From Microglena sp. YARC (Eukaryota > Chlorophyta > Chlorophyceae > Chlamydomonadales > Chlamydomonadaceae), in contig CM039462.1 in the NCBI GenBank assembly GCA_022414725.1, positions 41,505,622-41,569,621 on the forward strand: a stretch of DNA of 64,000 nt. Reading direction: 5' to 3'. This document shows positions 27,222-64,000 of the stretch, in pieces. Position numbers and translations under genes: made by a program. Position 1 is the stretch's first letter. Each line of letters begins with the position of its first letter. The notes beneath the pieces were generated by a model. It saw only the letters and a list, made by a program, of their open reading frames with translations. It had not been told where the DNA came from and ran no database searches.

Positions 27222-27224
27222 TAA

Positions 27225-27880: not shown

Positions 27881-28039
27881 ATAGATGATTATAAACGTGG
27901 GAGTGATGATGATGGTCATGGTGAGATTGGTAGTACTGATGGTGTTAATGAGAAGATGATTGCGATCGTGTTATGTGGTGTTGTAGTGCCTGCTTCAGAA
28001 GTTGTGTGTGGGTTGTGCTGCAGTTGGATAGCCAGTTAT

Positions 28040-31480: not shown

Positions 31481-31489
31481 TGGTATAGA

Positions 31490-32650: not shown

Positions 32651-32857
32651 AACATTCTCATTCGGGACGCGCCTCCAGGCGCCCTTTATTTGAAAAGGGA
32701 TTAGCCCCATTAAAATGTCCGTTAGTTCGTTCGTCCGTGTGTCACAAACCAAATTTTCAGGTTTCATGAAAAACATCAAAAAGTTGAACATTCTATATTT
32801 TTGATGAATTATAAGATTTATTTATACCGGGAAAATTCTCAGCAGAGCACATATGAG

Positions 32858-33090
32858 CATCGCACGAAAGCACGAAAAGGAGCTCAGTTTGGGCCAAATC
32901 AACGGTTCACAATTTGATTTCAGGGTGTTTTTAGCTAACATTTCAAACAAGAACCACTTAAACATGTGCGCATACATAGGTTTGGAAACAGAATTGTCGT
33001 CAAAATTTTGAGGCGAAACATGTAAGCATCACAATGGACGAAACATTCCCCTAGGGCACTTCAGCTATAATTAGCCCACGGACCTAGTGT
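32858..33090. repeat. Interspersed repeat, copy 2
   Basis: Shares ordered sequence blocks with 25868-26095 (see that entry), ending near TAGCCCACGGACCTAG. The similarity begins around GAGCATCGCACGAAAGCACG. It is found again at 51240-51470 as part of the large duplication. Confidence 0.75.
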
Positions 33091-44283: not shown

Positions 44284-45283
44284 NNNNNNNNNNNNNNNNN
44301 NNNNNNNNNNNNNNNNNNNNNNNNNNNNNNNNNNNNNNNNNNNNNNNNNNNNNNNNNNNNNNNNNNNNNNNNNNNNNNNNNNNNNNNNNNNNNNNNNNNN
44401 NNNNNNNNNNNNNNNNNNNNNNNNNNNNNNNNNNNNNNNNNNNNNNNNNNNNNNNNNNNNNNNNNNNNNNNNNNNNNNNNNNNNNNNNNNNNNNNNNNNN
44501 NNNNNNNNNNNNNNNNNNNNNNNNNNNNNNNNNNNNNNNNNNNNNNNNNNNNNNNNNNNNNNNNNNNNNNNNNNNNNNNNNNNNNNNNNNNNNNNNNNNN
44601 NNNNNNNNNNNNNNNNNNNNNNNNNNNNNNNNNNNNNNNNNNNNNNNNNNNNNNNNNNNNNNNNNNNNNNNNNNNNNNNNNNNNNNNNNNNNNNNNNNNN
44701 NNNNNNNNNNNNNNNNNNNNNNNNNNNNNNNNNNNNNNNNNNNNNNNNNNNNNNNNNNNNNNNNNNNNNNNNNNNNNNNNNNNNNNNNNNNNNNNNNNNN
44801 NNNNNNNNNNNNNNNNNNNNNNNNNNNNNNNNNNNNNNNNNNNNNNNNNNNNNNNNNNNNNNNNNNNNNNNNNNNNNNNNNNNNNNNNNNNNNNNNNNNN
44901 NNNNNNNNNNNNNNNNNNNNNNNNNNNNNNNNNNNNNNNNNNNNNNNNNNNNNNNNNNNNNNNNNNNNNNNNNNNNNNNNNNNNNNNNNNNNNNNNNNNN
45001 NNNNNNNNNNNNNNNNNNNNNNNNNNNNNNNNNNNNNNNNNNNNNNNNNNNNNNNNNNNNNNNNNNNNNNNNNNNNNNNNNNNNNNNNNNNNNNNNNNNN
45101 NNNNNNNNNNNNNNNNNNNNNNNNNNNNNNNNNNNNNNNNNNNNNNNNNNNNNNNNNNNNNNNNNNNNNNNNNNNNNNNNNNNNNNNNNNNNNNNNNNNN
45201 NNNNNNNNNNNNNNNNNNNNNNNNNNNNNNNNNNNNNNNNNNNNNNNNNNNNNNNNNNNNNNNNNNNNNNNNNNNNNNNNNNN
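44284..45283. other. Assembly gap, exactly 1,000 N
   Basis: The run of N is exactly 1,000 long, a conventional placeholder for unknown size. Open frames spanning it are artefacts. The sequences on either side are the two ends of the duplicated 17-kb block. Confidence 1.
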
Positions 45284-45650
45284 AACGCAGGATTGTAGGA
45301 CTTGTAGTGATTTTTGGTGATTTTGATGGTGGGAATTTGCATGGTGTGTCACCACGAAAAGCGACGCATAACGAGGAAAGCGGTGACCTCACCACTGAAG
45401 TTCTCGCAGCAAATACGTATCGTTTTCCGCTCGTTTCTCTTCTGCTTTTGAAACCGCGATTTTTCAAATATAACAATATTTAAAATAATTCCGTTACAAA
45501 GCCGACATTTCCGCCTCCAGGATTGCAGAAGGAACGCGAGGAGACCCAGAATACACTGTGGAAACAAAAATTGGTGACCTGGCTCCTAGGGTTAAACATT
45601 TGGGGAGTTCGCGGCAAGAAAGTCTCTGTGAACCACAGAGCCCCTAACTT
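45284..45650. mobile_element. Right part of the TIR transposon, error-rich copy
   Basis: Matches 26880-27230. The terminal repeat is damaged (GTCTCTGTGAACCACAGAGCCCCTAAC, compared with the clean TIR at 27205-27221). The left part is missing because the contig starts inside the element. Confidence 0.8.
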
Positions 45651-46379
45651 GGCACAATAACATTATAACGGGTAAAGATTACATATCCATCTCACAGCAA
45701 CCTTGCTGGCTGGAATTAGCACTGCCGAATTCGGTTGCAATAACGTGGTACAATTATCGCCCTCGCAGCAATACAAATAGCGCTGACCGTGTCATCGCGC
45801 AGGGACGGCCGCTCTTCTTTTCCTTTCGCCCATTCTCGAGCTTATTAGTTGAAGTTCTCAATAATAGCATTTACGACACGCGCCTAGGACTGCTCTTTGA
45901 GAACCAATTCCATCGCAATTCTGATGCCCCCTCATTCAACTCTGAATTCGCGCCCATCGTCTCATTAGCCGCGCGGTCCCTATAACGCACACTCGAGGCA
46001 ACTGGACCATGCGCCCTTCACGCCTCTTATGGTATTAGATTGGTATGCTAAGGCAGTGAAATAGCATGACATTGAATGGTTTATACTAATGCGTACAATA
46101 TGTAGAATTGTAGTGGCCTCGAGCAGCCATTAGCATAGCAGTATCTATAACCACCTGCAACATGGAAACCAAACATGAAACTAGTGGGAAGACATCAGCA
46201 GGCTAGTACACATAGCATTGTCCGAGCGTACATAAAATAAACAATGATATATTGGTTAGTATGGATATGGTTTGAATTGATATTAATACAACGGGGAGTG
46301 ATGATGATGGTCATGGTGAGATGTAGTCTGAGATGGTGTTAATGAGAGATGCTGCGGATCGTGTATTTGTGTTTAGTGC

Positions 46380-49300
46380 CCTGCTAAAGTGTGTGTGGGT
46401 GGTGCTGCAGTTGATAACAATTATGTGTGTGTGCAAGGTGTGCCTGAGTGTGTTTTGTGTGTCCATGGGGTAAGGCATGGATAGCCTGTGTGTGTGTGCA
46501 TGGTGTAGTGCAATGGATAGCTAGTGTGTGTGTGGTGAGTGCCGATGTGTGTTGTGTGATGGATTGTCTTTGTAGGCATGGGGATGCAGGTGTTGTGATG
46601 GTAGGGCCGGTGGCAGTGCATGCGTAGTCCTTGTGTGTGCGTGTGTGAGTGTGGGGTACGTGGATGTGGTGCATGGTTGTCTTGATTGTAGGCGATGGAT
46701 GGCCTGGTGTGGGATGCGTGATTGTGCGATTAGGTGTGATTGTCCATGGATGTCGTTGTAGGAATGATGAACCAGGTGTGTGAATGTGTATAACGGACAG
46801 ATCTGTGGGCAGTGCAGTGTACCAATATGGTGTGCAATGGGTGTTTCTGTATGGATCAGTGTGATTGGGTAAATGCGTTAGGCAGTGTATGTGCAACCGA
46901 TTGTGCTTTGTGGTTTTGTCATGCGTGAGGTCCGTTGTTTTGTGTTGCATTGATTGTCTTGTATCGCATGGATCCAGATTGTGCGTATGTGCTGCACATG
47001 CGTGTGCGGTGCATGATTAGCCAGATGCTTTTTGCATCACAGTGGTGTTGCAGGCATGGTTCGCCAGATGTTGTGTATGTGCGTGCACAGGTTGTGGAGT
47101 ACAAGCAGGATAGCCAAGATGTTGTTTGTATGTGCGTGCACGGATGTGGGAATGATTGGTATTAATTTGTATTGTGCTTGCATATCGTGTATTTGAGGTG
47201 TTTGTGTTGCATGGGGTATTTGTAGTGCTGAACAGCCATATGTGTTTATGTACAGCACATACTGTGCGACATTGATGTGAGCCATTTGTTTTGTGGCATG
47301 GATTGATTGGCTGAATGGTGTGTTTGCATGTGTTGTCCTAGTGTCTGTTGCATGCAATAGCCAGAAAGTGTGGATGTGCGGTGCACAGTGCTGTGTTGCA
47401 GTGCATGGATAGCCAGTTGTGTGTGTATGGGCGTGCACAGTCTGTGTGGCAGTGCATGGACGGCAAATTTATTTTGTCGCGTTGCATTGGACGTGGTACT
47501 TGAGTGTGTTTTGTTTTGCATGGGGTGGTCTTGTAGGCATACAGGTAGCAGATGTGTGCGTATGTACTAGCACATGGCTGTGCGACAGTGTTTTGTGAAG
47601 CCAGTTGAATATGTGTGCATGCTTGATTGGCTTGAATGATGTTGTGTTTTGCAAGTGGTTGCTTGCAGTGCATGTTTGCCAGATGTGTGTGTATGTGCGT
47701 GCCAGTGCTGTGTGGCAATGCATGGATAGCCAGAGTGTGTGTAATACTTACGCAGTCTGTGTGGCAGTGCATGTATAGCACATTTGTGCATGTGCATGCA
47801 CAGTGCTGTGTTGCAGTGCATGGATAGCCAAATGTGTGTGTATGTGCGTGCACAGTGCTGTTGGTAGGCATGGATAGCCACATTGCAGTGTGTATTTGCA
47901 TGCACAGTGCTGTGTGGTAGTGCATGGATGCCAATGCTATGTGTGTATATGTGCGTGCACATTGTTGTGACACCGTGGCAGTGCATGGATAGCCCACAGT
48001 TGTGTATGTGCGTGCACATAACGTGAGCTGTGTTGCAGTGCATGATAGCAATATGTTTTGTGCGTGCATGTGTTTGTATTTGAGTGTGTGTCATGCTTGC
48101 GCAGGGTTGTCTAGGCGATGACAGCAATAGCGCATGGATAGCTCAGTATGTGTGTATGTACTAGCACATGGCTGTGCGACAAGTATGTGTAGCAATTGTT
48201 TTGTGTGTGCATGCTTGAAATATGTGGCTGAATGTGTTTGCGTTTGCATGTGGTTGTGTCTTCTGTACACTGGATATGCCAGATGTGGTGTGTTGTGTGC
48301 GTGCATAGGCTGGTGTGGCCAGTGCATGTATAGCCACATGTCCATCCTGTTGTGCATGCATGCACAGCTGCTTGTGTTGCAGTGCATGGATAGCCAAATG
48401 TGTGTGTTGTGCGTGCACAGTGCTGTTTGGTAGTGCATGGATAGCCACATGAGTGTTATTGCATGCACATGCTGTGTGGTAGTGCATGGATAGCCAGTTA
48501 TGTGTGTATATGTGCGTCCGCACACTTGTTGTGTGGCAGTGCACGGATAGCCACATGTGTGTATGTGCGTGCACATACAGTGCTGTGTGGCAGTGCATGG
48601 ATAGCAATTGTTTTGTGCGTGCACAGAGCCTGTGTTTTGTATTTGAGTGTGTTTCATGCTTGCAATGGGGTTGTCTTGTAGCGCATGGAAGTAGCCAGAT
48701 GTGTGTGTGTATGTTACTAGCACATGGCTGTGCGACAAAGGTATGTGTAGCCAGTTGTTTTGGTGTGTGCATGCTTGAGTGCTGGGCTGAATGTGTTTAT
48801 GCGATTGATCTGTGGTTGTACTTCTGGTACAAATGGATAGCCAGATGTGGTGTGTGTGCGTGCATAGTGCTGTGTTACAGTCCATGGATAGCTAGATGAT
48901 GTGTGTATGTGCTATCGTGCACAGTGCTGTGTTGCAGTGCATGGATAGCCTGATGTGTTGAGTATAGTGCGTGCACAGTGCTGTGTTGTAGTGCATGGAT
49001 GGCAATTTGTTTTGTGCGTGCATGCGTACCTGTGTGTATTTGAGTGTGTTTTGTGTTTGCATGGGGTCTCTTGTTAGTGCATGGATAGCCAAATGTGTGT
49101 GTTTCTGGAATGGTGCAAATGTGTTGTGCGGTGTGGCAGTGTGTGTGTGCAGTGAGCATGGAAAGCCACATGTTGTGTATGTGCATGCCACAGTGCTGTG
49201 TGTAGTGCATGGGTAGCCAGATGTGATGTGTATGTGCGTGCACAAGCCGCTGATTGTGTGGAAGTGCATGGATAGCAAATTTTTTTGTGCGTGCATGTGT

Positions 49301-49870
49301 TGTATTGAGTGTGTTCATGTTGCATGGAGTTCTTGCAGTGCATGGATAGCCAGATGTGTGTGTATGTACTAGCACATGGCTGTGCCGAAATGTATGTGTA
49401 AGCCAGTTTTTGTGTGTGCATGCTTGATTGGCTGAATGTGTTTGTGTTTGCATGTGGTTATCCTGTAGTGCTTGGATAGCCAGATGTGTGTGAGTGTCCG
49501 TGCACAGTGCTGTGATGTAGTGCATGATGGCCAGATTTGTTGTGTGTGCGTGCACAGTGCTGTGCTGGTAATGCGGACGAATAGCCAGATGGTGTGTTAG
49601 TGCGTGTGCGCAGTGCTGTGTGGCAGTGCATGATAGCCACATGTGTGTGTATGTGCAATGCACAGTGCTGTGTGCAGTGCATGGATAAGCCGGCTGTGTG
49701 TGTATGTGCGTGCGCAGTGCTGTGTGGCAGTGCATGGATAGCCACATATGTGTGTAAGTGCGTGCACAGTGTTGTTTGGCAGTGCATGGATAGCCATATG
49801 TGTGTGAATGTGTGTGCGCAGTGCTGTGTGGCTGTGCATGGATAGCCACATGTGTGTGTATGTGCGGTGT
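46380..49870. repeat. 52-bp minisatellite, error-rich copy
   Basis: Same array as 28040-31480, with many indels that shorten the open frames on the minus strand. The CGTG-rich start, the higher-order blocks and the final units near 49690-49850 line up with copy A. Confidence 0.9.
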
Positions 49871-51040
49871 GTATAGAGTATGTATGCTTTAGGCCTCTGA
49901 TGACCCCCTGGGTTCCACCTGTCTCTTTGTACATTAGTTTGTCTCTCTCATCTGTGCTGCTGATACCGGCAAACTCTGCACCCAAACATTTGGCTCGTAG
50001 TTGGAGTGCGCTTGACTAAAGATATCAGCTTTGCAGCGGTCATGATCCCTCTCAATTAGTTGTCAAATGTTTTGTAGCATATTCTGCTATGAGTACCTAC
50101 TTACTCCATTACTTCTGAAACTCCAGCCTCCCTCCTCTCACTTTCTCGCATTCTGCATATCAACTATTTCTCGACTATTTGCCCCATTTCCTGCCCGTGA
50201 CTTCTAATGTGTTTCAGGGTTTAGTTTGCTTAGTGGTTTGAATGCCTGCGGTTGACCATAATTCAGATGCTACGTGTCCAGGCTGTCGAGACTATGTGTT
50301 CAATACCACGCACGCCAGGGACACGTCAAGCCGACTCTACAACCTCATTGGCAAAACACGAGTCAGAATGCATATCACACTGCGATCTCGTAATACGATA
50401 TTGTATTTGGCAACAAGCGGTGTCCTGGGGGTCCCGAATTAATTGCCATAAATGTGGGGAATGAGGCCACATCAAGCTTGTATGCGGCTGACCAAACAAA
50501 TTCAACCATACCTCTGATTGGTTACATTTCGTGTGCATCAACTGCTTGCAAATAAATCCCATCTACAAGACAGTCCAGGCACGTTTAATACTGCTTCAAA
50601 TTTAACAACCCTACAAAATGTCAATTGTCGTTACTTTGTAGTAAACAAAGCTACATACATCGATTCAATTAAATTCAATCCAAGTATATTGAATTCAAAT
50701 GCATACAATGCAAATCAATTAAATGCAATAAATTCAAGTCTATACAACACACTTTTGATTATATCAAATTAATTAAATACAGTTGTATTAATTAATTAAT
50801 TATCAATCACAATTAAATTAATTAAATTGATAATTTATTTAATATAATTTAATTAATTATGTTATTGATTAATTAATTAGTTAAATACTTTTAAATTAAC
50901 CAATCAATTTATCATGATTTGATTCATTCAGTTTAATCATATAATCTATTAATTAATACAATTTATTCAATAATTATACAATTATACAATAATAAAATTA
51001 TACAATTAAATTTCTAATTGAAGTCATATTATTTTAAACA
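49871..51040. other. Non-coding copy of 31490-32650
   Basis: Unique-looking segment and AT-rich TTAATTAA block, nearly identical to copy A except for single-base indels. No gene is seen. Confidence 0.7.
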
Positions 51041-53748
51041 TTCTCATTCGGGACGCGCCTCCAGGCGCCCTTTATTTGAAAAGGGATTAGCCCATTAAAA
51101 ATGTCCGTTAGTTCGTTCGTCCGTGTGTCACAAACCAAATTTTCAGGTTTCATGAAAAACATCAAAAAGTTGAACATTCTATATTTTTGATGAATTATAA
51201 GATTTATTTATACCGGGAAAATTCTCAGCAGAGCACATATGAGCATCGCACGAAAGCACGAAAAGGAGCTCAGTTTGGGCCAAATCAACGGTTCACAATT
51301 TGATTTCAGGGTGTTTTTAGCTAACATTTCAAACAAGAACCACTTAAACATGTGCGCATACATAGGTTTGGAAACAGAATTGTCGTCAAAATTTTGAGGC
51401 GAAACATGTAAGCATCACAATGGACGAAACATTCCCCTAGGGCACTTCAGCTATAATTAGCCCACGGACCTAGTGTGACAGCAGTTCGGGACAGCTGACT
51501 TTTGTCAGCTTCGAGGTGCACTAGGTTGCGCTAGGTTAGACTGCATAGGCAGTCAGGGGACTCCTAAGAAGCTATAGCTCCTACATGGAAAGAAAGCTAT
51601 GGTATGTAATCAGGTTACTGAGTTTCTTAAAGGGGTTCATATGGTTCTGACAAAAAATAGGAGAGTTACATAACTGCACGTAAATATGATGTGCCATTTG
51701 TGGAGACCGAAAAGAAGAGCTGTGACGAGCAGCCCGCTGATGAAGGATGAGGCCATGTGGTCCGCAGGTCCGGTTCCAAAATTCCTAGTGTATCATTTCA
51801 ATACAATACAGGAGATATACATACATCCAAATGTATGACACGGCTAGATGGGTGTTAAGGGTGCATTAGCTGTTACCACTCAGTTACCGGCCCCTGGCTG
51901 GCGTCTGCGGTGGCTCATGTCACGTGTCTCACCGTTTGGTTGGGCGTTAAATGTTCTTGGACGTGGGAGTCCGGAGAAGCAGTAGGGCAGAGACGACAGC
52001 GGCCAAAGTGGTGTCTGGAGCTCCTTGACGACAGCGGGGGTCGGACGCAGAGGGGGTTACTTCCCGGGAGGGTTCTGAGAGACAAAAGACGAGTGAGTGT
52101 TACATAATAAGTGTAGATAATAATTAATTGAAGGCCGCAGTTGGTTATTGACTGGCCGCAGGCCTAGCTCTCAAATAAGTAAATAGCGGGCTTCAACAGG
52201 GCAAGAAGAAAGTCGGCTGGAGGTGGCTGCACGACTGATCAATGGCAAGGGAAGTTCGATCGGCTTACTAAAGGGTTACTAGCTATTAGTACAAGTCAAC
52301 CAGGGGCGGCTTAGCAAGCTATCGAGTCAAGAGCACGGATGGGCTCTGTTGGCTGCTGGAGGCTGGAATGGTTACATGTTATCAATACCCATCAGCCAAG
52401 GGCAGCTTTACTAGTAACCGAGCAAAGGGCACGGGTGCATTGGCTGCTGGAGGGTGAAATGGTTACGTGTTATCAATACCCATCAGCCAAGGGCAGCTTT
52501 GCTAGTAACCGAGCAAAGGGCACGGATGGGATCGGCCGGCTCACAATAGGCTGAATGGGCAATCAAGATGAGGTCTGTCAACAGGCAGCATCATCATCAC
52601 GACTCGGTAATACTAACTGAACGCACCTGAGAGAGAAAAGACGAGTGAGGGTTGTGTTCAGCTCGCTGCTCTCTTTATTGTGGCGGGAACTTATTCATGG
52701 CTAAGGGCTTAAGGAATTGGGATGTGAAATGATGCTGTCCTGGCCGGCATCTGATGCCAACCGGGTTGCAATTGGATATGGGAATATATTGCCGCAGCTG
52801 CGGGGTAGCTGCGCTTGGCACGTGGTGTGGCACGTGGTGTTCGCTTGCGACAGCGTGTACTGACAGGTTGGCGTGTTACATACGCAGTGTTTGAGCACGC
52901 GTTCGCGCGTGACAGCTGACGCGGCTAGATGGGTGTTAAGGGTGCATTAGATGTTACCACTGAGATTCCCCCCCTTCACTATTGGTAGATAGTGAAAAAT
53001 GAGAAGTGGTAACGAAGAGAGTGGTATAAGAAATTTTGAAGGACTGGAAAAAAAATTCTCAGTCTCTCCTTCTTGTCTCTAGCTATAGGCTAGCATGTGT
53101 GGGTTTGGTTATGTGATTTAAAGTATTTATTGTGATTGTAACAATTTCCCCCCCCCCCTGCAGTTTGGTTTGCTGGGTAGGTGTGAGGGTAGGGTAGGTA
53201 TCGTTCCTTCACTGGGTGTTTGTGCAAAGATATAGTCCCTCCCCCCCTGCAGTAAGTGCGATGGGTAGGTGTGAGGGTAGGTATGTGGAAGTCTATTACA
53301 TCTCACCACACGTATTCCCCCCCCCTATTCACGGAGTTAAATAGATGAAAAAGGTGGTGGTTGTGAGAGTAAACAGAGAATAGAAGCTGAAATAGAAGTG
53401 AAACCGCATGGTAAAAATCGTCGCTGTAGATACTAGGCTAGTCTAGTATCCCTGAAAGGCTATGATGAAAAACCCATGTGTAGCCGGTCTCTTGACGCAT
53501 ATCCACTAGCTACGTAAGTAAGGAGTGGAACAAAAAGTTCATGGTGTATGGCAGTACGTATGGGAGTACTGTGCGCAGTACATGTGCAAGTACATGGGGC
53601 AGTACATGTGCAAGTACAATGTTAATGCACTGAAATAAATAAGGCAGGTATGTCTGGGTTATGAGTGCAGTTGATTGCTATACTGCCATAACCATCCAGA
53701 CGGTATCCAAGGTAAGGCTGTCTGAAGAAGTCTGCGAGGCTTAGTTGC
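51041..53748 (-). other. Interspersed repeat and LTR-like 3' region, copy B
   Basis: Copy of 32651-35353. The 49-base direct repeats lie at about 51838-51886 and 52917-52966. The tandem 91-bp unit lies at about 52345-52530. No gene is seen. Confidence 0.5.
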
Positions 53749-54711
53749 CTAGGTGAGCAGTGTCCCCAAATACTGCCTGGATATCCTGGGCTGCTGTGCG
53801 CTGTGGGGTGCCGGGGTCACCCTGTCAGGTCCAAAACCATCCTGCTGTAACATGGTGAGGATATGTTGTCTGAAGAAGGGAAAGTTCAGGAGTGGAGTGA
53901 ACGACCCTGGGAAAGGCAGTCGCAGGAGCGCTAAGTCCAGTGCGTCAAAGGGCACTGAGATGTCATCTGTGTATAGGCGCAGGTCTGATGCGGGCTCAGC
54001 TGGGAGTCTGGCAGTCAAGAACATGGCTGGATTCAAAGTCAGTGCGGTGGCGTGGGCATCCACGAGTGCGGACTGGAAGCGAATGACTTTCCATACGGTG
54101 AGAGTGTTGACTTGTGTGTTGTCGTATGCCCAAATCAAGTTTGCTAGCCTGCGGATGTGGTGGAACAGACGCTGTGTCACTTGAAATGGCTTGCTGGGGA
54201 GGTCAGTCCTATGAGGGGACTGGGCCTGGGCAGCGCTGAGTAGACCTGGGAACAGCATGCTGAAGCTGCGGTGTATGTGTAAGAAGGCTGGCCTGGCAAT
54301 TGGCTGTGAGATCTGAGTGGGGTCTCCTCGAGCCAATCGCTGCAAAGACCTGCTAAAAGCTGTATGGTAGGTTAGGTACCCAGTACCAAGTACTCTGATA
54401 CGTGGGTGGAGTGGGCAAGAGGAGGCAGTGCTCGTTTCATGGCTTGAGGACGATCCATCATTATTTGCTGTGGCACATGTGCACGCAGGGGTGGGTGCGC
54501 TGCTCATGCCTGTAAATGGGGAAACACTGGTATGAGGGGATGTACGATCCCTATGGGATGGTGTAGTTAAGAGGGTCGCCCAAAGATGTGACGTAGTTAC
54601 AGAAAGCTGGGATATGTGTAGTTTACATGACAGGGGGGGGTGCTTGAATGTAGTCCAGGAAAAGGGCAGTGGGGTAGTCCCCATAGCGTCCAAACTTAGG
54701 GAGGCGTCCAC
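53749..54711 (-). CDS. Terminal ORF domain of the Ty3 element (copy B)
   Basis: 320 codons. The C-terminal part is the same conserved domain as at 35354-36124 (LANLIWAYD to MLQQDGFGPD). The N-terminal extension comes from a frame that is closed in copy A, so the true start is uncertain. A Ser/Thr-rich segment (SSAPTPACTCATANNDGSSS) precedes the domain. Function unknown. Confidence 0.6.
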   Translation of the reverse strand: MDASLSLDAMGTTPLPFSWTTFKHPPLSCKLHISQLSVTTSHLWATLLTTPSHRDRTSPHTSVSPFTGMSSAPTPACTCATANNDGSSSSHETSTASSCPLHPRIRVLGTGYLTYHTAFSRSLQRLARGDPTQISQPIARPAFLHIHRSFSMLFPGLLSAAQAQSPHRTDLPSKPFQVTQRLFHHIRRLANLIWAYDNTQVNTLTVWKVIRFQSALVDAHATALTLNPAMFLTARLPAEPASDLRLYTDDISVPFDALDLALLRLPFPGSFTPLLNFPFFRQHILTMLQQDGFGPDRVTPAPHSAQQPRISRQYLGTLLT

Positions 54712-55237
54712 ACGTCTGGATGCTGGGCCTCGTATCAGGGGGCATACACGTCAGAGGTGTTGCAGCGTCCCAGGCTGGTCCTGGGAGACGGCGAGGGTGG
54801 TTGGGCTGGAAGGGGTGTGGAAGCTTAGGACCAGTGGGCTGAGCATCCTCCCACTTTAGCAAGGTCTGGAACAGCATGCCTTGCTGGAAAAGCCAGGCAG
54901 CATGTAGGAAAAGAATGCGGTCGTCGTATGCAATTACTGTTTCTGAAGGGAGCTGGAGGACTTCTCCTGAGCTGCTGTTGGTGTCACCGTAGAAGCAGGG
55001 GCCGAAACAGAGGTGTTTTCGGCCTACGACAGGATATCCCGTGTAGGGTGGTGATTGGTGTGATATGAAGGCTGAGGCACTGCTGTCTTGTGGGAGGCAG
55101 GAGTAGATCCCGGCCCGGACTGATGGGTCCATATAGATGGTGGGGAAGTCTGAAGAAGGCATGTTCTCAGCCATGGCGACTGTGACGTGGGGGTGACGGC
55201 TTGCAGGATATATTTCCTGTGGTAGTGCAGAATACAA
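54623..55237 (-). CDS. Unknown segment between PHD and terminal domain
   Basis: 204 codons with YTGYPVVGRKHLCFGPCFYG, VIAYDDRILFLHAAWLFQ and a Pro-rich tail ending YIQAPPPVM. I do not recognise it. It is in the same frame class as the PHD frame and probably belongs to the same polyprotein. Confidence 0.45.
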   Translation of the reverse strand: MYSALPQEIYPASRHPHVTVAMAENMPSSDFPTIYMDPSVRAGIYSCLPQDSSASAFISHQSPPYTGYPVVGRKHLCFGPCFYGDTNSSSGEVLQLPSETVIAYDDRILFLHAAWLFQQGMLFQTLLKWEDAQPTGPKLPHPFQPNHPRRLPGPAWDAATPLTCMPPDTRPSIQTCGRLPKFGRYGDYPTALFLDYIQAPPPVM

Positions 55238-55239
55238 CT

Positions 55240-55930
55240 TTAAAGGTTGTAGCTAGATACTGCAAGAAGGGTTGTGCTCAGCGATGAGGATGCCATGAGT
55301 GGGGTGTTGGCATGAGGGGTTGATGCATGCCAACACTGGGGTGGTAAGAGTAGGCTTGATAGTTCCTGTGGGGAGGGGGTTGAGTTTACGGAGGCCAGCT
55401 GTAGTCTGACGGACGACCTGGCCGTCATCGTAGGTGATGTTGAAGTACCATGGTCTAGCCAAGGCACCCAAGTACGTGGCGATGCCCCAGACCTCTTTGT
55501 ATAGGCTGCCACGAACTTTGATGTGCTTGATGACCACCATCTTGTCGCATGCTTTGGCAGCAAGGTCTCTAGAGCGGGTCTGGGGGGTTGGGAACAGGTT
55601 GGACTCCTTGGGAGCGCGTTCAGGTGCCGTGGGGCGATCCAGAGGGACAGGCTGTAATGCCGTTGGCAGTACAGTGAGGGCAGAACCAGTCACCGCTGGG
55701 ACTGGTAGTGGGGGGCTGAGACAGTGTGTGTGAAACGGTGCGCCACAGGAGTCGCACAAGAGCATGCAAGCATCGTTGACTGGGAAGTTGCAGACGCTGC
55801 AGGCCAAGTCAAGTGGTGGCACTGCCAGATCTGGCCTGATGGTGCCATCCATGTTGGGCAAGTGGCAAGGGGACAGGTTGCGGGCGTGGTTGGTGACAGT
55901 GCAGCCGCAACGGCCTTGTAGGACAACCAC
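55240..55930 (-). CDS. PHD finger and Tudor-like segment (copy B)
   Basis: The frame 55253-55930 starts from the integrase tail (RNLSPCHLPNMDGTIRPDLA), then the PHD finger CSVCNFPVND...LLCDSCGAPFHTHC. It then loses the last CxxC pair to a small deletion near 55695-55705 that copy A does not have. It regains sense with KVRGSLYKEVWGIATYLG and WYFNITYDDGQVV, a Tudor/SH3-like pattern. Together with copy A the full arrangement is PHD followed by a Tudor-like module. This suggests chromatin-guided integration. Confidence 0.7.
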
Positions 55931-56305
55931 CTATGTGTCCTTGATGGCCTTGATCCGAAGGATCATCCCCTGTGCTGCCATTTGGAGAGTGTTGCGCACG
56001 TTGGGTCTACGGATGTAGACGAAGTCACCCACTTGAAATTTGTGAAGACGGGGGTGGTAAGCTCCCCCCCTGATCTTAGCATAACGCAGAGAGTTCCTGT
56101 GGTGGGCAATTGCGATGTGGTTTGCTATAGTGGGGGTGACGCGCTTGATCCACTCAGTTCGCTCGAGCAGGGTGCTGACCAGGGCTTGAGTTTGCTGGAT
56201 GTCTGTTAAGTCAGGGAGAACTGTAGTCATGGCGAGCTCTGCGTGGGGGTCGTTCATGACTGGAGCTCTGGCGTACAGCAGGGTGAAGCCGTGAAGGGAG
56301 CGCAC
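55931..56305 (-). CDS. Integrase C-terminal region
   Basis: 124 codons. AIAHHRNSLRYAKIRGGAYH, then HKFQVGDFVYIRR and AAQGMILRIKAIK match the pattern of the Ty3 integrase C-terminal domain (GDxVxLR...). It continues the integrase core of the overlapping frame 56254-57765 after a register change near 56290. It binds DNA in the family. Confidence 0.7.
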   Translation of the reverse strand: MRSLHGFTLLYARAPVMNDPHAELAMTTVLPDLTDIQQTQALVSTLLERTEWIKRVTPTIANHIAIAHHRNSLRYAKIRGGAYHPRLHKFQVGDFVYIRRPNVRNTLQMAAQGMILRIKAIKDT

Positions 56306-57765
56306 TTGGTGGTCTCCTGAGGGCTGCAGTTGTAGGCCATCACCACCTTGGCGATGTCAATATCCCAAGTGTCTGTGGAGAGGTGTTCTGAGCAGATTTT
56401 GGTCAGAGCTGCCTTGATGGTGCCGACGCTTCTTTCCACGAAACCGTTGCCCTGAGGGTGGTTAGGGTGTGTGGTCCTGTGGTCGATGAAGTTGTGCATC
56501 ATGTGTTCTTTGAACTTGCCGAGGAACTCAGGACCATTGTCAGTAATGGCGACGGCGTGGGTACCATAATGAGCGAGCACACCGTGGGCGTGTGCGTACA
56601 TGGTGTGTGCAGCCTCCTTGGCTGGAATGGGGACGACTACCAGGACTGCGCTGAAATATTCGATGGCGTGCATGAGGTAAGTGTTACCCCGAGCTGTCTT
56701 GATGTAGGGGCCTGAGAGGTCGATGCCCCACGCAAAGAACAGGCCGTGGATGGGGTGGGACTGCAAGGTGGCTGTGGGCTGGTTGAAGTAGGCCAGGGCC
56801 TGGTCACAGACCTTGCAATTTTTGACGAGGGCTTTGACCTGCTTGACCACACCCTGCCACCAGAAAGAGCTGACGACAAGGTAGGCTGTACGACGAGCTC
56901 CGAAGTGCCCGCTGGCTTCATGGGCTCGCTGGATGATGGTTGCTCGCTCGCTGGGGGCTGGGACGATGGGCTCCATAGTGTTGGCCAAGATACGAATGAT
57001 CTTCTCTGCCCCCGTAGGTGAGAATCCGAGCTTATACTTTCTGGAGCGGGCTAACACTCTGCGGGTGCGTGCCACGGACCAGTTGGTGCCCAGCACCATC
57101 CTGGGGAGGTACTCCAGGACGAACTGATCGTCATGGATGTCAAGGGGTTCAGATTCCTTGGCCATGTCTGCTAGCCGGATGTCTGCGTCCAACTGCTTGC
57201 CTGGTGCAAGGGTTGGAATCAGGGGAGTCGCTGGAGGCGCTGAAGGGGGTGGGGAAGCTGGCTGAATGGGCCTAGGTGCGCTAGCATTCCTTGTAACTGC
57301 CAGCATGCAGGCTAGCTCGGTGCCATAGAATTGACGGCTGTGAGAAGGCATGTCATCTGAGGGAGCGGGACTGCTGTGGGGGAAGCGGGGCACAGTGGTG
57401 AGAAAAAGGACTGGAGTGGAAGCGGGCAGAAGCTGTGGTCTGATGGGTGGCTGGTAGGCCAGCAGAGCTGTCAGACGGGGAGGGGCTGCAAGCTCCACGG
57501 AGGTCCGAATGATGGCCACTAGGGCCCGCTGATCCATGCAGTTGCCCGTCAGAACGTGCCGTTGTAGTGCTGTGAGGCCTGGAGCAGCTGTGGCACCGGT
57601 GTAGTAGCCAAGCATGCGCTCGCGCTCGTCTGGGCGGGGCTCGGACCATGCTCCACCCTGTAGTGAGTAGATGCTGCCGGGTTTGTCTGGGAGGAATGCT
57701 CTGGACAAGGGATAGGCAACCAAGGCGGGCAAGGCGGTGCGAGGCTGGCCTATCTTGTTTGCCAA
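56254..57765 (-). CDS. Methyltransferase C-terminus fused to zinc-binding DDE integrase
   Basis: 503 codons. Residues 1-90 complete the methyltransferase: GQPRTALPALVAYPLSRAF resembles motif IX and LTGNCMDQRALVAIIR resembles motif X. A Pro/Ser linker (about 165-190) follows. The HHCC zinc site is H282, H287, C317, C320 (HEASGH ... CKVC). The catalytic triad is D349 (GIDLSGP), D409 (TDNGPEF), E444 (GNGFVER), with 34 residues between the second Asp and the Glu. All key residues are present. In the cell it would insert element DNA into chromosomes. The frame starts after a register change relative to the upstream reverse-transcriptase frame. Confidence 0.9.
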   Translation of the reverse strand: MANKIGQPRTALPALVAYPLSRAFLPDKPGSIYSLQGGAWSEPRPDERERMLGYYTGATAAPGLTALQRHVLTGNCMDQRALVAIIRTSVELAAPPRLTALLAYQPPIRPQLLPASTPVLFLTTVPRFPHSSPAPSDDMPSHSRQFYGTELACMLAVTRNASAPRPIQPASPPPSAPPATPLIPTLAPGKQLDADIRLADMAKESEPLDIHDDQFVLEYLPRMVLGTNWSVARTRRVLARSRKYKLGFSPTGAEKIIRILANTMEPIVPAPSERATIIQRAHEASGHFGARRTAYLVVSSFWWQGVVKQVKALVKNCKVCDQALAYFNQPTATLQSHPIHGLFFAWGIDLSGPYIKTARGNTYLMHAIEYFSAVLVVVPIPAKEAAHTMYAHAHGVLAHYGTHAVAITDNGPEFLGKFKEHMMHNFIDHRTTHPNHPQGNGFVERSVGTIKAALTKICSEHLSTDTWDIDIAKVVMAYNCSPQETTKCAPFTASPCCTPELQS

Positions 57766-58475
57766 GCAGAAGGGAGGAGCGTCTGATCTGTAGACACGCG
57801 TGGTGCTGCGCCCAGGGTCTAAGAAGGTGTTGGCAGAAATGTTTGCAGTCCGCCGGACTGTGTTGAGCTCTCTCGTTGGAGTTCAAATGGGTCAACAAGG
57901 TTCTGCCATTTATTGCGCAGTCTGTGGGCACCTGAGTTGAAGGTGGCAGCGTCCACACAGATGGGCTGCCCAATGGTCATGTTGACTGCTGTGAAGTCCT
58001 CGTTTGCAATAGCTGGTGATCGGAAGTTGTGCTGCATGGCAGCGTTCTCTATGATGTAGAGTGGTTGAGCAGGGTGCTGTAGCTGCTGGACGTACCCAAT
58101 GACGGTGGTACACGCCTGCAGGACTGCTGCTCGGGGTCCTCTAAGACCTCTATTGCTGCCCGCTGGGCTGAAGTCTTGACACTCAGGACCAGTGATGATC
58201 AACCATTGGGTTTGGTCGTTAACTGCTGCATCCATGAGGTGCTGGGGGGTGATGGCTTTGACGTCCTGCGGCAGTGTAGTGAAAGCGCCATCGCATGCAT
58301 AGGGCTGCAGCAAGTGGGGATAGAGCTTTAACAGGGCTTGAGTGCGGAAGCGGGCCACTGTCAGTGCTGCTGGGGCTGTGTCGCTGTAGAGGTAGCGGTT
58401 GACTCTAATGCCGTTGCGCAATGTGGCCTCGAGGCCGGCACACAGGCCTCCACACATCTCGTAGAGAGTCACTCC
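57496..58475 (-). other. C5-cytosine DNA methyltransferase domain, DNMT3-like
   Basis: Spans residues 675-875 of the upstream frame and 1-90 of the next. Motif I: VTLYEMCGGLCAGLE, followed by GIRVNRYLYSD, close to the DNMT3 pattern (FDGIATGL...GIxVxRYxxSE). Motif IV: GPECQDFS with catalytic Cys773 (58179-58181). Motif VI: IENA at 816-819. Motif VIII: CVDAATFNSGAHRLR, close to the DNMT3 AHRAR block. Motifs IX and X lie in the next frame. The substitutions PPC to PEC and ENV to ENA are unusual. A two-base excess near 57,870 separates the frames. The domain sits between RNase H and integrase. Confidence 0.85.
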
Positions 58476-60497
58476 GCTTTGAACCATTTTTGCAACAGCA
58501 GAGGGTAGGGGTTTGGTGCATATGGAGAGGACTTCACGCACTTGGAGGACTGCATCCACTGTACATCCCAAGGTCAGAGTCAGAGGGTTGTAGGTGATGT
58601 AAGGGACTGCAGGGAAAGCGGCATAGAGGTCAGCGTCCATGTCGATGCGGGCCCCTGTGTTGTCTTCCTGTCTTGGGGTTGGAAAGCGGGAGAGAGCATC
58701 AGCATTACCATGCTGGGCACCAGGTCTGTGCATGATGTCGAAGTCGAATGACTGCATCATGCACGCCCATCGTGCAATGGTGCCTGTGACGTTGGAGTTG
58801 GAGAACATCCAGAGCAGTGGCTGGTGGTCAGTGACGAGGGTAAAATGGAGTCCTAAGACGTAGACTCTGAAGATCTTGCAGGCCCAGCAGGCTGCAAGCA
58901 TTTCCCCTTTGAAGCTGCTGTACTCTGCTTCATGTTTGTTGAGGCTGCGACTGGCGCAAGCTACGAGGTACTCCAAACCTTCTGCGTCCAGCTGGCCGAG
59001 TACTGCTCCCAGTCCATGCTTGCTCCAGTCACAATGGATGAGAGTGCGTGCTTCGACGTTGAATCTGCGCAAGACCTTGCCTGGTGTGCTGATGAGCCCG
59101 CGGATCTTGTCCATAGCGGCTGCCTGCTCAGGCCCCCAAGTCCATTTGACGTCAGCCTTTGTAAGGTCATTCAGGGGTCTGGCGATGGCAGAAATGTTTT
59201 CACAGAAGCAGCCGTAGTAGCGCAGCTTACCAAGGACTGTTTTTAAGTCTTTCAGGTTGGCTGGGTATGGCAGGTCCTTGATAGCCTGCACCTTGGCCTG
59301 CTGGGGGGTGAGACCGTGGTTGCTGACGTCAAAGCCTAGGAAGTCCACGGCGTCCAGCGCACAGCAGGATTTATCAGGGTGGATGCGGAGACCAACCTCG
59401 ATAAGGCACTGGAGCACGGCTTCCACGTGCCGAATGTGCTCTGCAAAGGTAGCGCTATGGATGAGGATGTCATCGATGAACACCTTGCAGAATTTTAATA
59501 GGCCCCGTTTGCCCAGTTCAGTCTCCATGACCTTCTGGAAGTATGCGGGGGCCTGCTTGAGGCCGAATGGGACGCGCTTAAAGCGGTATAGCTGCTTGTC
59601 CCACCAGAAGGCTGAAAAATCCTGGGATGCCTCTGCAAGATGGACTTGGTAGAAGCCAGATCGTAGGTCGACCCGTGTGAACCACTGTGCGTCTCCTAGA
59701 TCTTGAAACAACTCCTCTGCGACTGGGTAACCAGTATGCATGTCCTTGGTCAGGAGGTTGATGGCTTTGTAGTTGTAGCACACCCTATTCGCGGTGTACT
59801 GGCCATCAGGTCCTTTCTTCAAGGCGACCACTGCGTTGGCTGCGTGTGGTGCAGAAGGGGCTGGCTCAATGAAGTGCAGCATCTGCAGTTCTGCACAGAC
59901 TTTGTCTTGGGCGAGCTTCTCTATGGGAGGCTTGCGGTAGGGGCTGGTGAAGGCTTGCTTGTCATTGTCCTTCTTGATATCTAGGGGGGGTACACAGCCT
60001 TTGTACCCCTCACGTAGATCCTCCATAGTGCGTGCCACCGCTGCGGTATACTTATTAAGCATGGCGGCCATTTCAGAGCGCTCAGCTTCTGTGCCATCTC
60101 TGTGGTGTCCGATGAAGAGGTCACAGTCCGGATGGATGGCGCCTCGGTCGGGGTTGGGTGTGACTACCCCGTCTGGCATGCTGTTGTTGATACCTCCTTC
60201 TTGCAGGAAGTTGGGGTCCATATGATTTAAACAGCTGGCCAGGCTTTGCAGACGGCCTGGAAGAAGCGATGCTGCCGGTGGTAGTCCGACAGGGGTGCTT
60301 CTACCTTGAGGATCCCCGATTGGCAAGACGCAAGCAGGTGCGGCAGCATAAGTTAAAACCTGACTCTCAAAGAAGTCATTACCTGGTCTCCAGTCAACGT
60401 CGTCAAACCGGTTGGTGAAGAAGTCTTGGATCTCGGCTGGCTGAGGATCACTGTCTACGCAGTGGTCTGTTTTGGATGGCAGAATGCCCATCATCAT
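57819..60497 (-). CDS. Reverse transcriptase, RNase H and N-terminal methyltransferase, 892 codons
   Basis: The longest clean frame of the window. Reverse transcriptase: FTRVDLRSGFYQVHL with Asp277 and FIDDILIHS with Asp342-Asp343, flanked by VPFGLKQAPAYFQ and HPDKSCCALDAVDFLGF; the order and spacing are those of Ty3/gypsy. RNase H acidic residues are Asp490 (HCDWS), Glu532 (KGEML), Asp557 (TDHQP) and Asp600 (GNADALSRFP). Methyltransferase motifs I-VIII follow from residue 675. It copies element RNA into DNA in virus-like particles. Upstream, the same frame is open to 61076 except for one TGA. The frame ends shortly after motif VIII by a register change. Confidence 0.95.
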   Translation of the reverse strand: MMMGILPSKTDHCVDSDPQPAEIQDFFTNRFDDVDWRPGNDFFESQVLTYAAAPACVLPIGDPQGRSTPVGLPPAASLLPGRLQSLASCLNHMDPNFLQEGGINNSMPDGVVTPNPDRGAIHPDCDLFIGHHRDGTEAERSEMAAMLNKYTAAVARTMEDLREGYKGCVPPLDIKKDNDKQAFTSPYRKPPIEKLAQDKVCAELQMLHFIEPAPSAPHAANAVVALKKGPDGQYTANRVCYNYKAINLLTKDMHTGYPVAEELFQDLGDAQWFTRVDLRSGFYQVHLAEASQDFSAFWWDKQLYRFKRVPFGLKQAPAYFQKVMETELGKRGLLKFCKVFIDDILIHSATFAEHIRHVEAVLQCLIEVGLRIHPDKSCCALDAVDFLGFDVSNHGLTPQQAKVQAIKDLPYPANLKDLKTVLGKLRYYGCFCENISAIARPLNDLTKADVKWTWGPEQAAAMDKIRGLISTPGKVLRRFNVEARTLIHCDWSKHGLGAVLGQLDAEGLEYLVACASRSLNKHEAEYSSFKGEMLAACWACKIFRVYVLGLHFTLVTDHQPLLWMFSNSNVTGTIARWACMMQSFDFDIMHRPGAQHGNADALSRFPTPRQEDNTGARIDMDADLYAAFPAVPYITYNPLTLTLGCTVDAVLQVREVLSICTKPLPSAVAKMVQSGVTLYEMCGGLCAGLEATLRNGIRVNRYLYSDTAPAALTVARFRTQALLKLYPHLLQPYACDGAFTTLPQDVKAITPQHLMDAAVNDQTQWLIITGPECQDFSPAGSNRGLRGPRAAVLQACTTVIGYVQQLQHPAQPLYIIENAAMQHNFRSPAIANEDFTAVNMTIGQPICVDAATFNSGAHRLRNKWQNLVDPFELQRESSTQSGGLQTFLPTPS

Positions 60498-60530
60498 GAC
60501 GGGGATGGTGTCAGGTGATGGGCTGATTTG

Positions 60531-61076
60531 TCATGCGTGTGCTTGCATGAGGAAGGCACCGTCTTCTGCTTCATCGGTGTCTGTTGTCTCAGGTTCCGTG
60601 CTGACCTCCTCGTCTGAGTTGTTGTTGTTGCCCCAATCATCTGGGTATTGGGGCTGGATATCAGGGAGGGCTTGGTGTAGGGCACTTGGGGTGATGACAA
60701 AGATAGAGGATGGGTGGATGCTGATATCAGGGGTGCCACATAGCCGTGTGCATCTGGTTTGGTTGCAGCACCGCTCTTCTTCTTCCACAGTGAAGAATCT
60801 GTCAGAGGGTTCAAAGCTAAGAGGTGGCCGAGTGGGGTGAGTCTCTGCATTCAATGGCTCTGGCATTGGGAGGAGGTCATAGACGTTGACTGGGTTGACG
60901 TCTTCGCCGTAGAGTGTTCCTGGGGTCAGCTGTTGCTGTGGCTTGGCAGGGTTCTGGTGGTACCTAGCCATATCCCTGTCGGCTGCTAGGAGGTGGATCT
61001 CTTCTTGAGCCCTTGCTGGAGGGTTAACTCTGATGGTTGGGAGAACACGCAGGCTAGCGTCCGGTGCAAGGTACAT
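60531..61076 (-). CDS. Accessory segment just upstream of reverse transcriptase
   Basis: 181 codons in the same frame as the 892-codon frame, separated by one TGA at 60531-60533. It has an acidic C-terminal part (SDEEVSTEPETTDTDEAEDG) and a Cys-containing stretch (ERCCNQTRCTRLCG). No family is recognised. The same TGA is visible in copy A (near 42390) despite noise there. Confidence 0.5.
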   Translation of the reverse strand: MYLAPDASLRVLPTIRVNPPARAQEEIHLLAADRDMARYHQNPAKPQQQLTPGTLYGEDVNPVNVYDLLPMPEPLNAETHPTRPPLSFEPSDRFFTVEEEERCCNQTRCTRLCGTPDISIHPSSIFVITPSALHQALPDIQPQYPDDWGNNNNSDEEVSTEPETTDTDEAEDGAFLMQAHA

Positions 61077-61990
61077 GGCCCCCCTGGGGACAGTCAGGTA
61101 CGTAGTGCGTCAGGTGGAGTGACGGGATGTCCTGGGGGCATGCAGTGGGTGCAATCAAGGTCCCAGGCTTTTGTTTGCTGATGGAGACTCTGATGGGCAG
61201 ACCTTGTTCCTTGCCCCAGGTGTGGATGGAAGTCCAGTTTTCAACACCGTCGAGTTCTCTGTAGAGGGTGTCTGCACAGCCGGAGTACAGTGAACCGTCC
61301 CTGTTGACTTCGTATTTGTACTCGTCCAGGCTGAAGCCGTGCTCAATCATGTTCATGAGCAGGATCACATAGACGTACGCCCAGTTGGTATGGGAGAACC
61401 TGATGGCTGACATAGCAAATGGACGGAGTTTCACGGCGCAGGTGAGGGAAATAGCGTAGCAGATCCATCATGAAGTCGATGGGGGCTGTGAACGCTTTGG
61501 GATCCCATGTGGGGCGGGAGGTGGGATGTGTTGGGCACCCTTTGTATGGGGTGCCTACCAATCCATGGTAGAAGAATGTTTCACCGTTCTCAGCTGCTGT
61601 GGCTGCCTCAGACATGGGGTTGAGTATCCAGACTCTAGAGTCGGAGACTGCATCGCAGGCGTTGGATGCAAAGTGTGAGTCACGTGTGAAGTGATACGAC
61701 AGACGTCTGAGATAAACCTGCAAAAGAGGCTCTGTTTCCAGCCAAATGCTGAGTGGCATGATGCTCTGCATGTACACTGATGGCCTTACGTGGAGAGTTG
61801 TGAGCATACTCTCACGTACTCCGCACAGAGGGTGTCTTGATCTAGTGTTTCGCCTGTTGTCGGTAGACGGTAGGTACTGGTAATCTGGGCGGGTGCATAT
61901 GCACCCATGCTGCTAGGGTGGTTGCTGCTGTCTGCAGGAGAGCTAGGCAGAAGGCTGGATGTGGATCGCGGCCTGGCTGGTTGCCTGCCA
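61054..61990 (-). CDS. Accessory region, two frame pieces, no known domain
   Basis: Frame 61343-61807 (SIWLETEPLLQVYLRRLSYH ... FFYHGLVGTPYKG) and frame 61054-61434 (FSHTNWAYVYVILLMNMIEH ... SLYSGCADTLYRELDGVENW) read as protein and overlap at their ends, so a register change joins them. The region lies between protease and reverse transcriptase, where Ty3 elements normally have nothing this long. Confidence 0.45.
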
Positions 61991-63067
61991 TCATAGGATG
62001 GTCAGGGTTGTTGTCCAGCAGGTAGTGGACGGTTGAGGCGAGTAGGTCCCTCCTCTGCATGACCTGGTGGAGGGCGGTTGCTCCGTTGACGGTGTATGGA
62101 GTGTTAGTTTCATCCAACTCTCCATAGCGGCGGTATCCGCCTGGGAATGTGTTGGGGCTATACACGAGCACTGCCGCTTGGTGCCTTGGTCCATATGGAT
62201 CAAGTGATTCATATAGTCAGCAAGAAGAGGTCTCCCTCTGAAGACTGGACTGGAGCGGCGGCTATGTGGCCAGGCAAAGTTCTCGATGGCGTCGGCAGAC
62301 GCTGGTGTCATAATGAGGACGGATCTGCGAACCATACGAGATGCCACGGCGAGCTGGTACGCGTCAAGTACTGTTCGCAAGTCCCAGTCTCGGTTGAGGA
62401 CGGACTGGGCGACGATGTTTTGCTCTCTCATGAGGGCTGCGAGCTCTGGCGCGAACAGCAGGAAGAATCGGACCGCCAGGGTCTCATCTACCACTGATGA
62501 GTTTGCGAAGTAGAATGCTTTAACGGAGCAGGACTGCCGTTGTACTTGGTGTGCACTGTCAAAGTGGACCCACACTGGGTTGTCGAACTCTGTAGTTGAC
62601 TTGAGGCGGGGGCCTGGGATACCTCCCCGTCTGGGGTGGAGGAGCCTGTGTATCACGGCGCTGGAGGGGTGGTCAGGGATGGCGACTCGGGCGTTGTGCC
62701 ATGCCCTAGGATTGTCAGGTGCTCGTATGTGAGTACGAGTTTGGGGTTCCTCGGGAGGCACGCCAGAGAGGGTCCACGTGAGTGTTGCCTCGTCGTATAC
62801 TGGTATGGGCTGGATGTCGTCATGAGCATGGACTTCCTGGACTGGGGCTATCAACCACTGGCCGTCCTGCGGGAGTAGGTGCGTAGCGTACACGCCCAAT
62901 TGGCTCCAGTTTCCCTCTCCTTCTTCGTCAAATGAGGAGTCGACCAGCTGTTCAACGACGAAAGTGGGGACAGGAGCCAGACCATCACCGTCTGGGCCAT
63001 GTCGTCTTATGAGAACCGCGGGCGGTCCAGCAGCTTGTACTTGTGGCAGTTGTGCCATCTCTGGCAC
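61842..63067 (-). CDS. Accessory region with ankyrin-like repeat
   Basis: Frame 61991-63067 starts MPEMAQLPQVQAAGPPAVLI and codes a globular-looking region (VKAFYFANSSVVDETLAVRF ... RSVLIMTPASADAIENFAWP). It ends past 62.1 kb in out-of-frame sequence. The overlapping frame 61842-62171 carries NGATALHQVMQRRDLLA, then VHYLLDNNPD, matching an ankyrin repeat (G-T-ALH...LL..NPD). Only one repeat is clear. Ankyrin repeats bind proteins; a role here is unknown. Confidence 0.5.
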
Positions 63068-63079
63068 GAGACTTAGTAC

Positions 63080-63697
63080 CTAGCACGGTACGCTCTGCCT
63101 TGAGCTGTGAATGGGTTTAAAGGGTAAGTCCACGGTGAGATTGTGAAACTCATCAGTGGATAATGCACTCGGTAAATGGAGATTAGGCCTGAGTGTAAGT
63201 TTTTGTTGTGATAGGTCTGGTAGGGCAGAAATGCCTGGCAGAGACAACAGTGGTGTACCCAATAGCACGTCGAAGATGCAGTTGTCTGGGGCGATGACGA
63301 AGGTCGCCCAGACGGTGATTTATTGTGGAGTAGTGCTGCAGAAGACGACCGGCACGCTGACTTCTTGAGTCAGGGAGTTTTTCTGGTCGTTGAAGGCCAC
63401 CGTCCTGTGGTTGCAAGCTGTTGTTGCATAGCCCAGGGAATCGGCGGTGGACTGAGACAGAAAATTTAGGCCGCTACCTGTGTCGACTAAGATCATCAGC
63501 AGATTCCAGCGGAGGAGGCCAGCCGCAGACCTGATGGAGAGGCTTGTCTGTTGGGACAGGTTGGCCAGGTATGGTACCCCGTAGGTAGGTTCTGTGCCTT
63601 GTAACAGGGTTGCGGTTGCTTGGCTCAAGTGGCCTGAGCGAGTGTAATCATGGACAAATGTTTGCAATGGGTCTGTGGACACAGACCGTGCATGCAC
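63080..63697 (-). CDS. Retropepsin-like aspartic protease, one in-frame TAA
   Basis: MILVDTGSGLNFLSQSTAD carries the DTGS active-site motif of retroviral-type proteases. After an in-frame TAA near 63320, the same frame reads TFVIAPDNCIFDVLLGTPLL, the C-terminal flap-side block with DVLLG, as in retropepsins. The protease cleaves the polyprotein. The TAA may be a mutation or an error; it is not repeated elsewhere in the window because copy A ends before this point. The protease precedes the accessory region in the element. Confidence 0.75.
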
Positions 63698-63998
63698 GTT
63701 GTGCGGTCTCCATGGCTGTAGCCCTAACTTGCAGAGCTCGATTGAACTCGTGCAGGTTTTGTATTTCTCGGAGGACCAGCTCCATGTCCTTTTTCAGGAC
63801 GGTTATCTCGTCCATGAGGAGAGTTGTCGTAGCTTGATGCTGGGCCCTTGTGACAGTCTTGTTGTGCTGTTGGGCGCCAGGCAAAGGGATGGCGGTTGTG
63901 CTGCCGGGTCCCGAGGTGGCAGGATTGTAGGTTGGCGTATACATAGCCTGTGATTGGGCTTTCGTCAGGGTCCCTGGGGCCTGTGCAAAGCTAACCAC
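63648..63998 (-). CDS. C-terminal Gag-like coiled coil, partial
   Basis: 116 codons, cut by the window end. TLLMDEITVLKKDMELVLRE, then IQNLHEFNRALQVRATAMET shows a heptad pattern of a coiled coil. It overlaps the protease frame by about 50 bases in another register. Most Gag sequence lies beyond 64000. Confidence 0.5.
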   Translation of the reverse strand: MVSFAQAPGTLTKAQSQAMYTPTYNPATSGPGSTTAIPLPGAQQHNKTVTRAQHQATTTLLMDEITVLKKDMELVLREIQNLHEFNRALQVRATAMETAQRACTVCVHRPIANICP

Positions 63999-64000
63999 CA

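Follow-up and report, generated by a model that had tools for sequence, protein, structure and literature searches.

A DNMT3-like cytosine methyltransferase domain and a PHD finger in the pol region of a Ty3/gypsy retrotransposon locus of Microglena sp. YARC

We analyzed a 64,000-nucleotide stretch of the genome of the green alga Microglena sp. YARC (GenBank assembly GCA_022414725.1, sequence CM039462.1, positions 41,505,622 to 41,569,621 of the forward strand; hereafter the window) and found at its right end, on the minus strand, a Ty3/gypsy long terminal repeat (LTR) retrotransposon whose pol region encodes, in order, a protease, a reverse transcriptase (RT), an RNase H, a C5-methyltransferase, an integrase and a PHD finger. 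Its assignment to Ty3/gypsy follows from the protease-RT-RNase H-integrase order on one strand and from a DDE integrase with an H2C2 zinc finger. We are highly confident that a DNMT3-like domain lies within this gypsy pol. The predicted domain is DNMT3-like by pairwise similarity, by its residues and by its modeled fold, while the tree leaves its branch unsettled. An earlier reading of the same DNA from its letters alone (the sequence-only reading) had proposed such a domain between RNase H and integrase, a proposal that similarity, profile and predicted fold supported.

The better-preserved half of the methyltransferase, spanning motifs I to VIII, is a 209-residue piece (57879..58505, minus strand, as are all features of the element) that follows RNase H, precedes the integrase and continues the open frame of the RT; this pol frame (57819..60530) runs for 903 codons from stop to stop and takes in the RT, the RNase H and motifs I-VIII of the methyltransferase. 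We read motif IV as ITGPECQDFS (58167..58196), motif VI as IIENAAM (58035..58055) and motif VIII as AHRLRNKWQNL (57897..57929). The nucleophilic Cys of motif IV is kept, preceded by Glu rather than Pro at a site where the two contigs that read this locus (described below) differ; also retained are Glu-Asn in motif VI and the two Arg residues of the motif VIII Arg-x-Arg. DRM methyltransferases carry motifs VI-X ahead of motifs I-V; the order found here, I, IV, VI, VIII, is not that rearranged one. Beyond motif VIII the reading continues in the next frame, across a 64-base overlap of two frames (57819..57882) in which the contigs differ by three indels, into a C-terminal piece (57478..57867) where weak motif IX/X-like stretches, DERERMLGY and RHVLTGNCMD, were noted by eye. 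Of the sequence-only claim that motifs I, IV, VI, VIII, IX and X follow in order, the first four hold up and the last two are weakly supported: they fall after the frame change, and 24 of 2000 shuffles reached the profile score of this tail.

For pairwise comparison we used four references, DNMT3A, DNMT1, DNMT2 and HhaI, whose sequences were verified against PDB chains. The 209-residue piece scored 90 against DNMT3A (z 14.6), a value reached by none of 2000 shuffles, as compared with 43 against HhaI (z 3.1, 19/2000), 40 against DNMT2 (z 1.8, 123/2000) and 40 against DNMT1 (z 1.5, 172/2000). A scan of viral contigs with the window piece aligned with DNMT3A yielded 53 loci, the best tblastn E-value among the candidate stretches being 8e-12, and 49 of these loci were built into a phage DNMT3-like profile that omits three DNMT1/HhaI-type loci, one fragment, the window and DNMT3A. 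The window piece reached 30.7 bits with this profile, against 0.7 for the highest-scoring of 500 shuffles, and 17.9 bits with a profile of the DNMT1/DNMT2/HhaI type; the profile sets are not fully independent of the window, because its sequence helped to find the viral loci. A profile search, one of the checks that the sequence-only reading had named, thus recognizes a C5 methyltransferase in this region. Among PDB structures, the predicted fold of the piece best matched DNMT3, with HhaI 1.7 Z behind, in a test that is partly circular because DNMT3-like sequences made up 36 of the 39 that informed the model. In a viral fold library, phage and giant-virus cytosine methyltransferases were among the best named rows, none of them beating the E-value of the DNMT3 rows; an AlphaFold2 single-sequence model of the piece (predicted local distance difference test score, 29.5) was not usable. 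Curated libraries searched with the single sequence (Pfam, NCBIfam and PDB) recognized the domain weakly, with marginal E-values. No close relatives of the methyltransferase piece, the RT frame or the integrase frame were found in the viral contig set, nor any of the methyltransferase piece in the set of bacterial and archaeal genome contigs. Codon usage of the methyltransferase piece correlated with that of RT-RNase H at 0.74 (all segment pairs, 0.64-0.86), a weak test because shifted frames of the piece still reach 0.65 and 0.36.

The viral loci (L001-L053) are uncultured viral contigs with C5-methyltransferase open reading frames (ORFs), most of them DNMT3-like. In the aligned loci, the Ser and Pro of the motif IV Ser-Pro-Cys were present in 37/39 and 39/39, respectively, and the Trp of the motif VIII Arg-x-Arg-x-x-Trp in 36/39.

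Several of our results weigh against a straightforward DNMT3 assignment. The phage DNMT3-like profile lacks specificity for DNMT3, as HhaI (111.6 bits) and DNMT1 (33.1 bits) both score above the window, and a profile made from DNMT3A only likewise rates HhaI (17.5) over the window (13.1). At 6 of 28 diagnostic columns the window carries the residue of the other group. Three motif residues depart from all 39 homologues: Glu in place of Pro in motif IV, Cys in place of Phe in motif I, and Ala in place of Val after the Glu-Asn of motif VI. Because the Pro before the catalytic Cys is missing, we named the domain DNMT3-like rather than DNMT3. The altered residues could be adaptations, losses of function or, at a single site, a consensus error. 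Finally, in the maximum likelihood tree the window stood beside DNMT3A (support 86.2/92) on a long branch of 2.8, but the approximately unbiased test rejected no placement tried (DNMT3A, p 0.39; DNMT1/DNMT2/HhaI, p 0.55; phage group, p 0.17). Taken together, we regard the original observation as partly confirmed and its interpretation as partly supported.

The state of the reading frames has to be judged in light of the assembly. The segments 26879-44283 and 45284-62346 lie on either side of a 1000-N scaffold gap (44284..45283) and match each other from one contig end to the other, at 91.6% identity with 754 gap openings and 354 mismatches; self-BLAST and this alignment located a second, error-rich reading of the element at the end of the neighboring contig (35357..44283). 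We rejected the possibility that this left copy is a second insertion, as the end-to-end alignment around the gap and the pattern of mismatches indicate an unmerged contig overlap; copy counts in this scaffold would therefore double, and the left copy gives no evidence of spread. Mismatches number only 3 per ~5 kb at 50-55 kb, and differences grow towards each contig's own end; even in this best part there are still ~10 indel differences per kb. Frame breaks do occur in the window's only copy (57819-57882, 56254-56356 and a stop at 55931-55933), which counts against the explanation proposed below, but they may be consensus errors and are not readable as decay because contigs of one locus differ by ~10 indels per kb. 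Each of five break stretches checked contained at least one inter-contig difference, a coincidence that is expected, and is no proof of error, because differences are dense at 56-58 kb (28-59 per kb).

The domains flanking the methyltransferase were identified as follows. The RT (59328..59777) matched Pfam RVT_1 at 86 bits over residues 252-401 of the pol frame, with an FIDD active site seen by eye, and the RNase H (58746..59054) matched RT_RNaseH at 97.6 bits over residues 493-595. On the other side, a single ORF (56254-57882) contains both the integrase zinc-binding domain (56800..56955; Integrase_H2C2, 52.2 bits) and the integrase catalytic core (56455..56730), for which the rve match of 30.3 bits is below the cut-off of 32.6 and the D, D and E residues were identified by eye. 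It is followed by the C-terminal part of the integrase (55931..56356), GPY/F-like by eye in translation (MLVIN_C, E 0.25). At the upstream end, an aspartic protease core with a DTG motif (63401..63496) corresponds to residues 100-131 of the ORF at 63323-63793 (Asp_protease_2, E 0.0023, 19 bits, cut-off 24.3), and between protease and RT there is a 362-residue ORF (61991..63079) with no Pfam or NCBIfam match at E<=1.

The PHD finger (55703..55801, profile positions 1-33 of 47) lies in the ORF at 55253-55930 and reached 30.2 bits against a Pfam cut-off of 24. Its best PDB match was KMT2D (9.1e-8), followed by KDM5-type proteins (Lid, KDM5A). The ORF shares its frame with the integrase C-terminal ORF, from which one stop codon (55931-55933) separates it; presumably this stop is a sequence error or is bypassed by readthrough. 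Farther downstream, a 333-residue ORF (53749..54750) gave one match under the cut-off (BIV_Env, E 0.034), which we took as chance.

As an overall explanation, we propose, at about even odds, that this is one locus of a Ty3/gypsy LTR element whose pol acquired a DNMT3-like methyltransferase and a PHD finger. The methyltransferase would be made within Gag-Pol and packed into the particle, where it would mark the new double-stranded complementary DNA (cDNA) of the element, or the target DNA into which it inserts, with CG as the likeliest context, such that a new copy would arrive premarked; the PHD finger would guide the integrase according to the state of the histone H3 tail. From its sequence, we judge the chances that the predicted enzyme acts on DNA to be evenly balanced, and a role in methylating the cDNA or the element itself to be a tentative assignment with somewhat less in its favor; the motif IV Glu and motif I Cys argue for caution on self-methylation. 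More speculative, and in our estimate improbable, is the idea that a writer before the integrase and a reader after it rebuild the ADD-plus-catalytic logic of DNMT3, coupling site choice to methylation of the new copy, with the motif I and IV changes possibly altering catalysis. CpG observed/expected ratios and TpG+CpA values (coding bias uncontrolled) were 0.57 and 1.38 in the element, 0.61 and 1.20 in its left flank, 0.72 and 1.20 in its 3′ flank, 0.91 and 1.02 at 15-21 kb, and 0.35 and 1.44 in another retroelement-like stretch. The element is thus mildly CpG-poor and TpG/CpA-rich relative to its flanks, yet less CpG-poor than the other retroelement-like stretch; some methylation of the element would fit these figures, but they show no specific trace of self-methylation. 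In the nearest published case, the KnitGypsy-Dnmt3 element of Klebsormidium nitens, the Dnmt3 domain gave no methylation in yeast, which counts against the proposed role, although its authors call the result inconclusive (PMC5890265).

A weak or dead domain, acting either as a cofactor in the manner of DNMT3L or as a structural module that binds DNA or S-adenosylmethionine, would account for the Pro-to-Glu and Phe-to-Cys changes at positions invariant in the 39 homologues, for the tree branch length of 2.8 and for a C-terminal half that is hardly recognizable. DNMT3L has lost the catalytic Cys, however, while the domain described here keeps it together with Glu-Asn and Arg-x-Arg and therefore shows no DNMT3L-like loss; as a consensus error is also possible at a single site, we consider this alternative unlikely, if still a serious one. 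The breaks in the frames listed above would also be expected of a decayed passenger, in which an old insertion had left domain and pol pseudogenic, but the consensus is unreliable for indels even at 50-55 kb and the frame is open from the RT through motif VIII, which makes decay a good deal less probable.

DNMT2-type enzymes methylate tRNA, and the C-terminal piece scores best, albeit weakly, with DNMT2 (z 3.3, 20/2000 shuffles), which raises the possibility that the substrate is the RNA of the element or a tRNA instead of DNA. The possibility of such a substrate has been raised for SymbioLINE (PMC5890265). Since the N-terminal piece is unlike DNMT2 and DNMT3-type enzymes are known to act on DNA, we give an RNA substrate very little weight. 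Least credible is that chance, or an assembly join, was misread as a methyltransferase: the marginal single-sequence E-values in Pfam, NCBIfam and PDB would allow it, but it is mostly refuted by the shuffle and profile tests, the fold test also speaks against it, the open frame continues uninterrupted across the RNase H junction, and each of the two contigs contains both junctions.

Turning to the ends of the element and the rest of the window, no repeat family (>=25 bases, 48000-64000 scanned) had a copy beyond 54 kb that could mark the LTRs. The element appears to extend past the window end at 64000, so that its 5′ end, with any gag and 5′ LTR, would lie outside the window. In the window itself, neither a tRNA nor an Rfam family reaching its gathering score was detected. 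Downstream of its last ORF, region 51836-52974 contains a pair of 58-base direct repeats (88% identical, at a distance of 1081 bases) and an 89-base tandem pair; these are possible parts of an LTR or of DIRS-like repeats. Adjoining the element (28000-31500 and 47000-49870) is a long array of diverged ~52-57-base units with the core CATGGATAGCC, which forms a 743-residue open frame in one contig and only shorter frames in the other. Minus-strand ORFs at 22300-25734 (CpG observed/expected, 0.35) show several CCHC zinc knuckles on visual inspection, of which Pfam picks up one just under its cut-off, and are probably the gag of another retroelement. A 288-residue plus-strand ORF (12450-13313) matched phrog_18293, a phage methyltransferase family, weakly over residues 104-167 (E 2.9e-4), whereas searches of Pfam, NCBIfam and PDB gave nothing for it at E<=1.

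Since DNA methylation normally silences retrotransposons, it is puzzling that some of them encode a methyltransferase, and an element with a methyltransferase and a histone reader in one pol would offer a further system for asking whether such elements methylate their own cDNA and whether new copies are thereby protected or silenced. Gypsy pols with a DNMT3 domain are already published, in the KnitGypsy-Dnmt3 element of de Mendoza (2018), and the sequence-only reading was correct in placing such domains in retrotransposons of charophytes and dinoflagellates (PMC5890265). A 2025 survey mentions DNMT3s in LTR Copia and DIRS elements as reported from streptophytes and dinoflagellates (PMC12344493), and a 2019 opinion paper states, without details, that green algae and other groups also have Ty3/Gypsy and DIRS elements that encode DAM or DCM (PMC6338049), which weakens the novelty of our element. 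A search by exact element names returned PMC5890265 alone. In the titles, opening lines of abstracts and passages covered, which leave out preprints and most closed papers, we met no report of DNMT3 and PHD in one gypsy element, and a term search for "PHD" in the main text of the KnitGypsy-Dnmt3 paper found none (PMC5890265). What is possibly new is the PHD finger at the chromodomain position, together with the altered motifs.

Among known systems, KnitGypsy-Dnmt3 likewise belongs to the LTR Gypsy elements and encodes a Dnmt3-type domain, divergent but not rearranged, within its Pol ORF; it may also share the succession RNase H, DNMT, integrase. Its key residues are reported to be conserved, where our domain has the motif IV Glu for Pro, and a DIRS-like repeat order is reported for it (PMC5890265). 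SymbioDIRS-Dnmt3 of Symbiodinium, two of whose domains methylate CG in yeast, shares a Dnmt3-type domain in a Pol polyprotein, but is a DIRS element with a tyrosine recombinase in contrast to the DDE integrase found here (PMC5890265). Orchid Ty3/Gypsy elements have also gained a nucleic-acid modification enzyme, in that case an m6A RNA demethylase encoded in a separate additional ORF (PMC9289625). The catalytic domains of human DNMT3A/3B resemble the Microglena domain in 30% identity over 148 aligned residues (DNMT3A), in the order of motifs I-VIII and in providing the best PDB fold matches, and differ in that no ADD or PWWP was seen alongside it, motifs I and IV are altered and IX/X are hardly recognizable. 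Chromoviruses, which belong to Ty3/gypsy, carry a chromodomain C-terminal of the integrase; our element has a domain of the same histone-reader type after its integrase, but with a PHD finger replacing the chromodomain and with a DNMT3-like domain added to pol.
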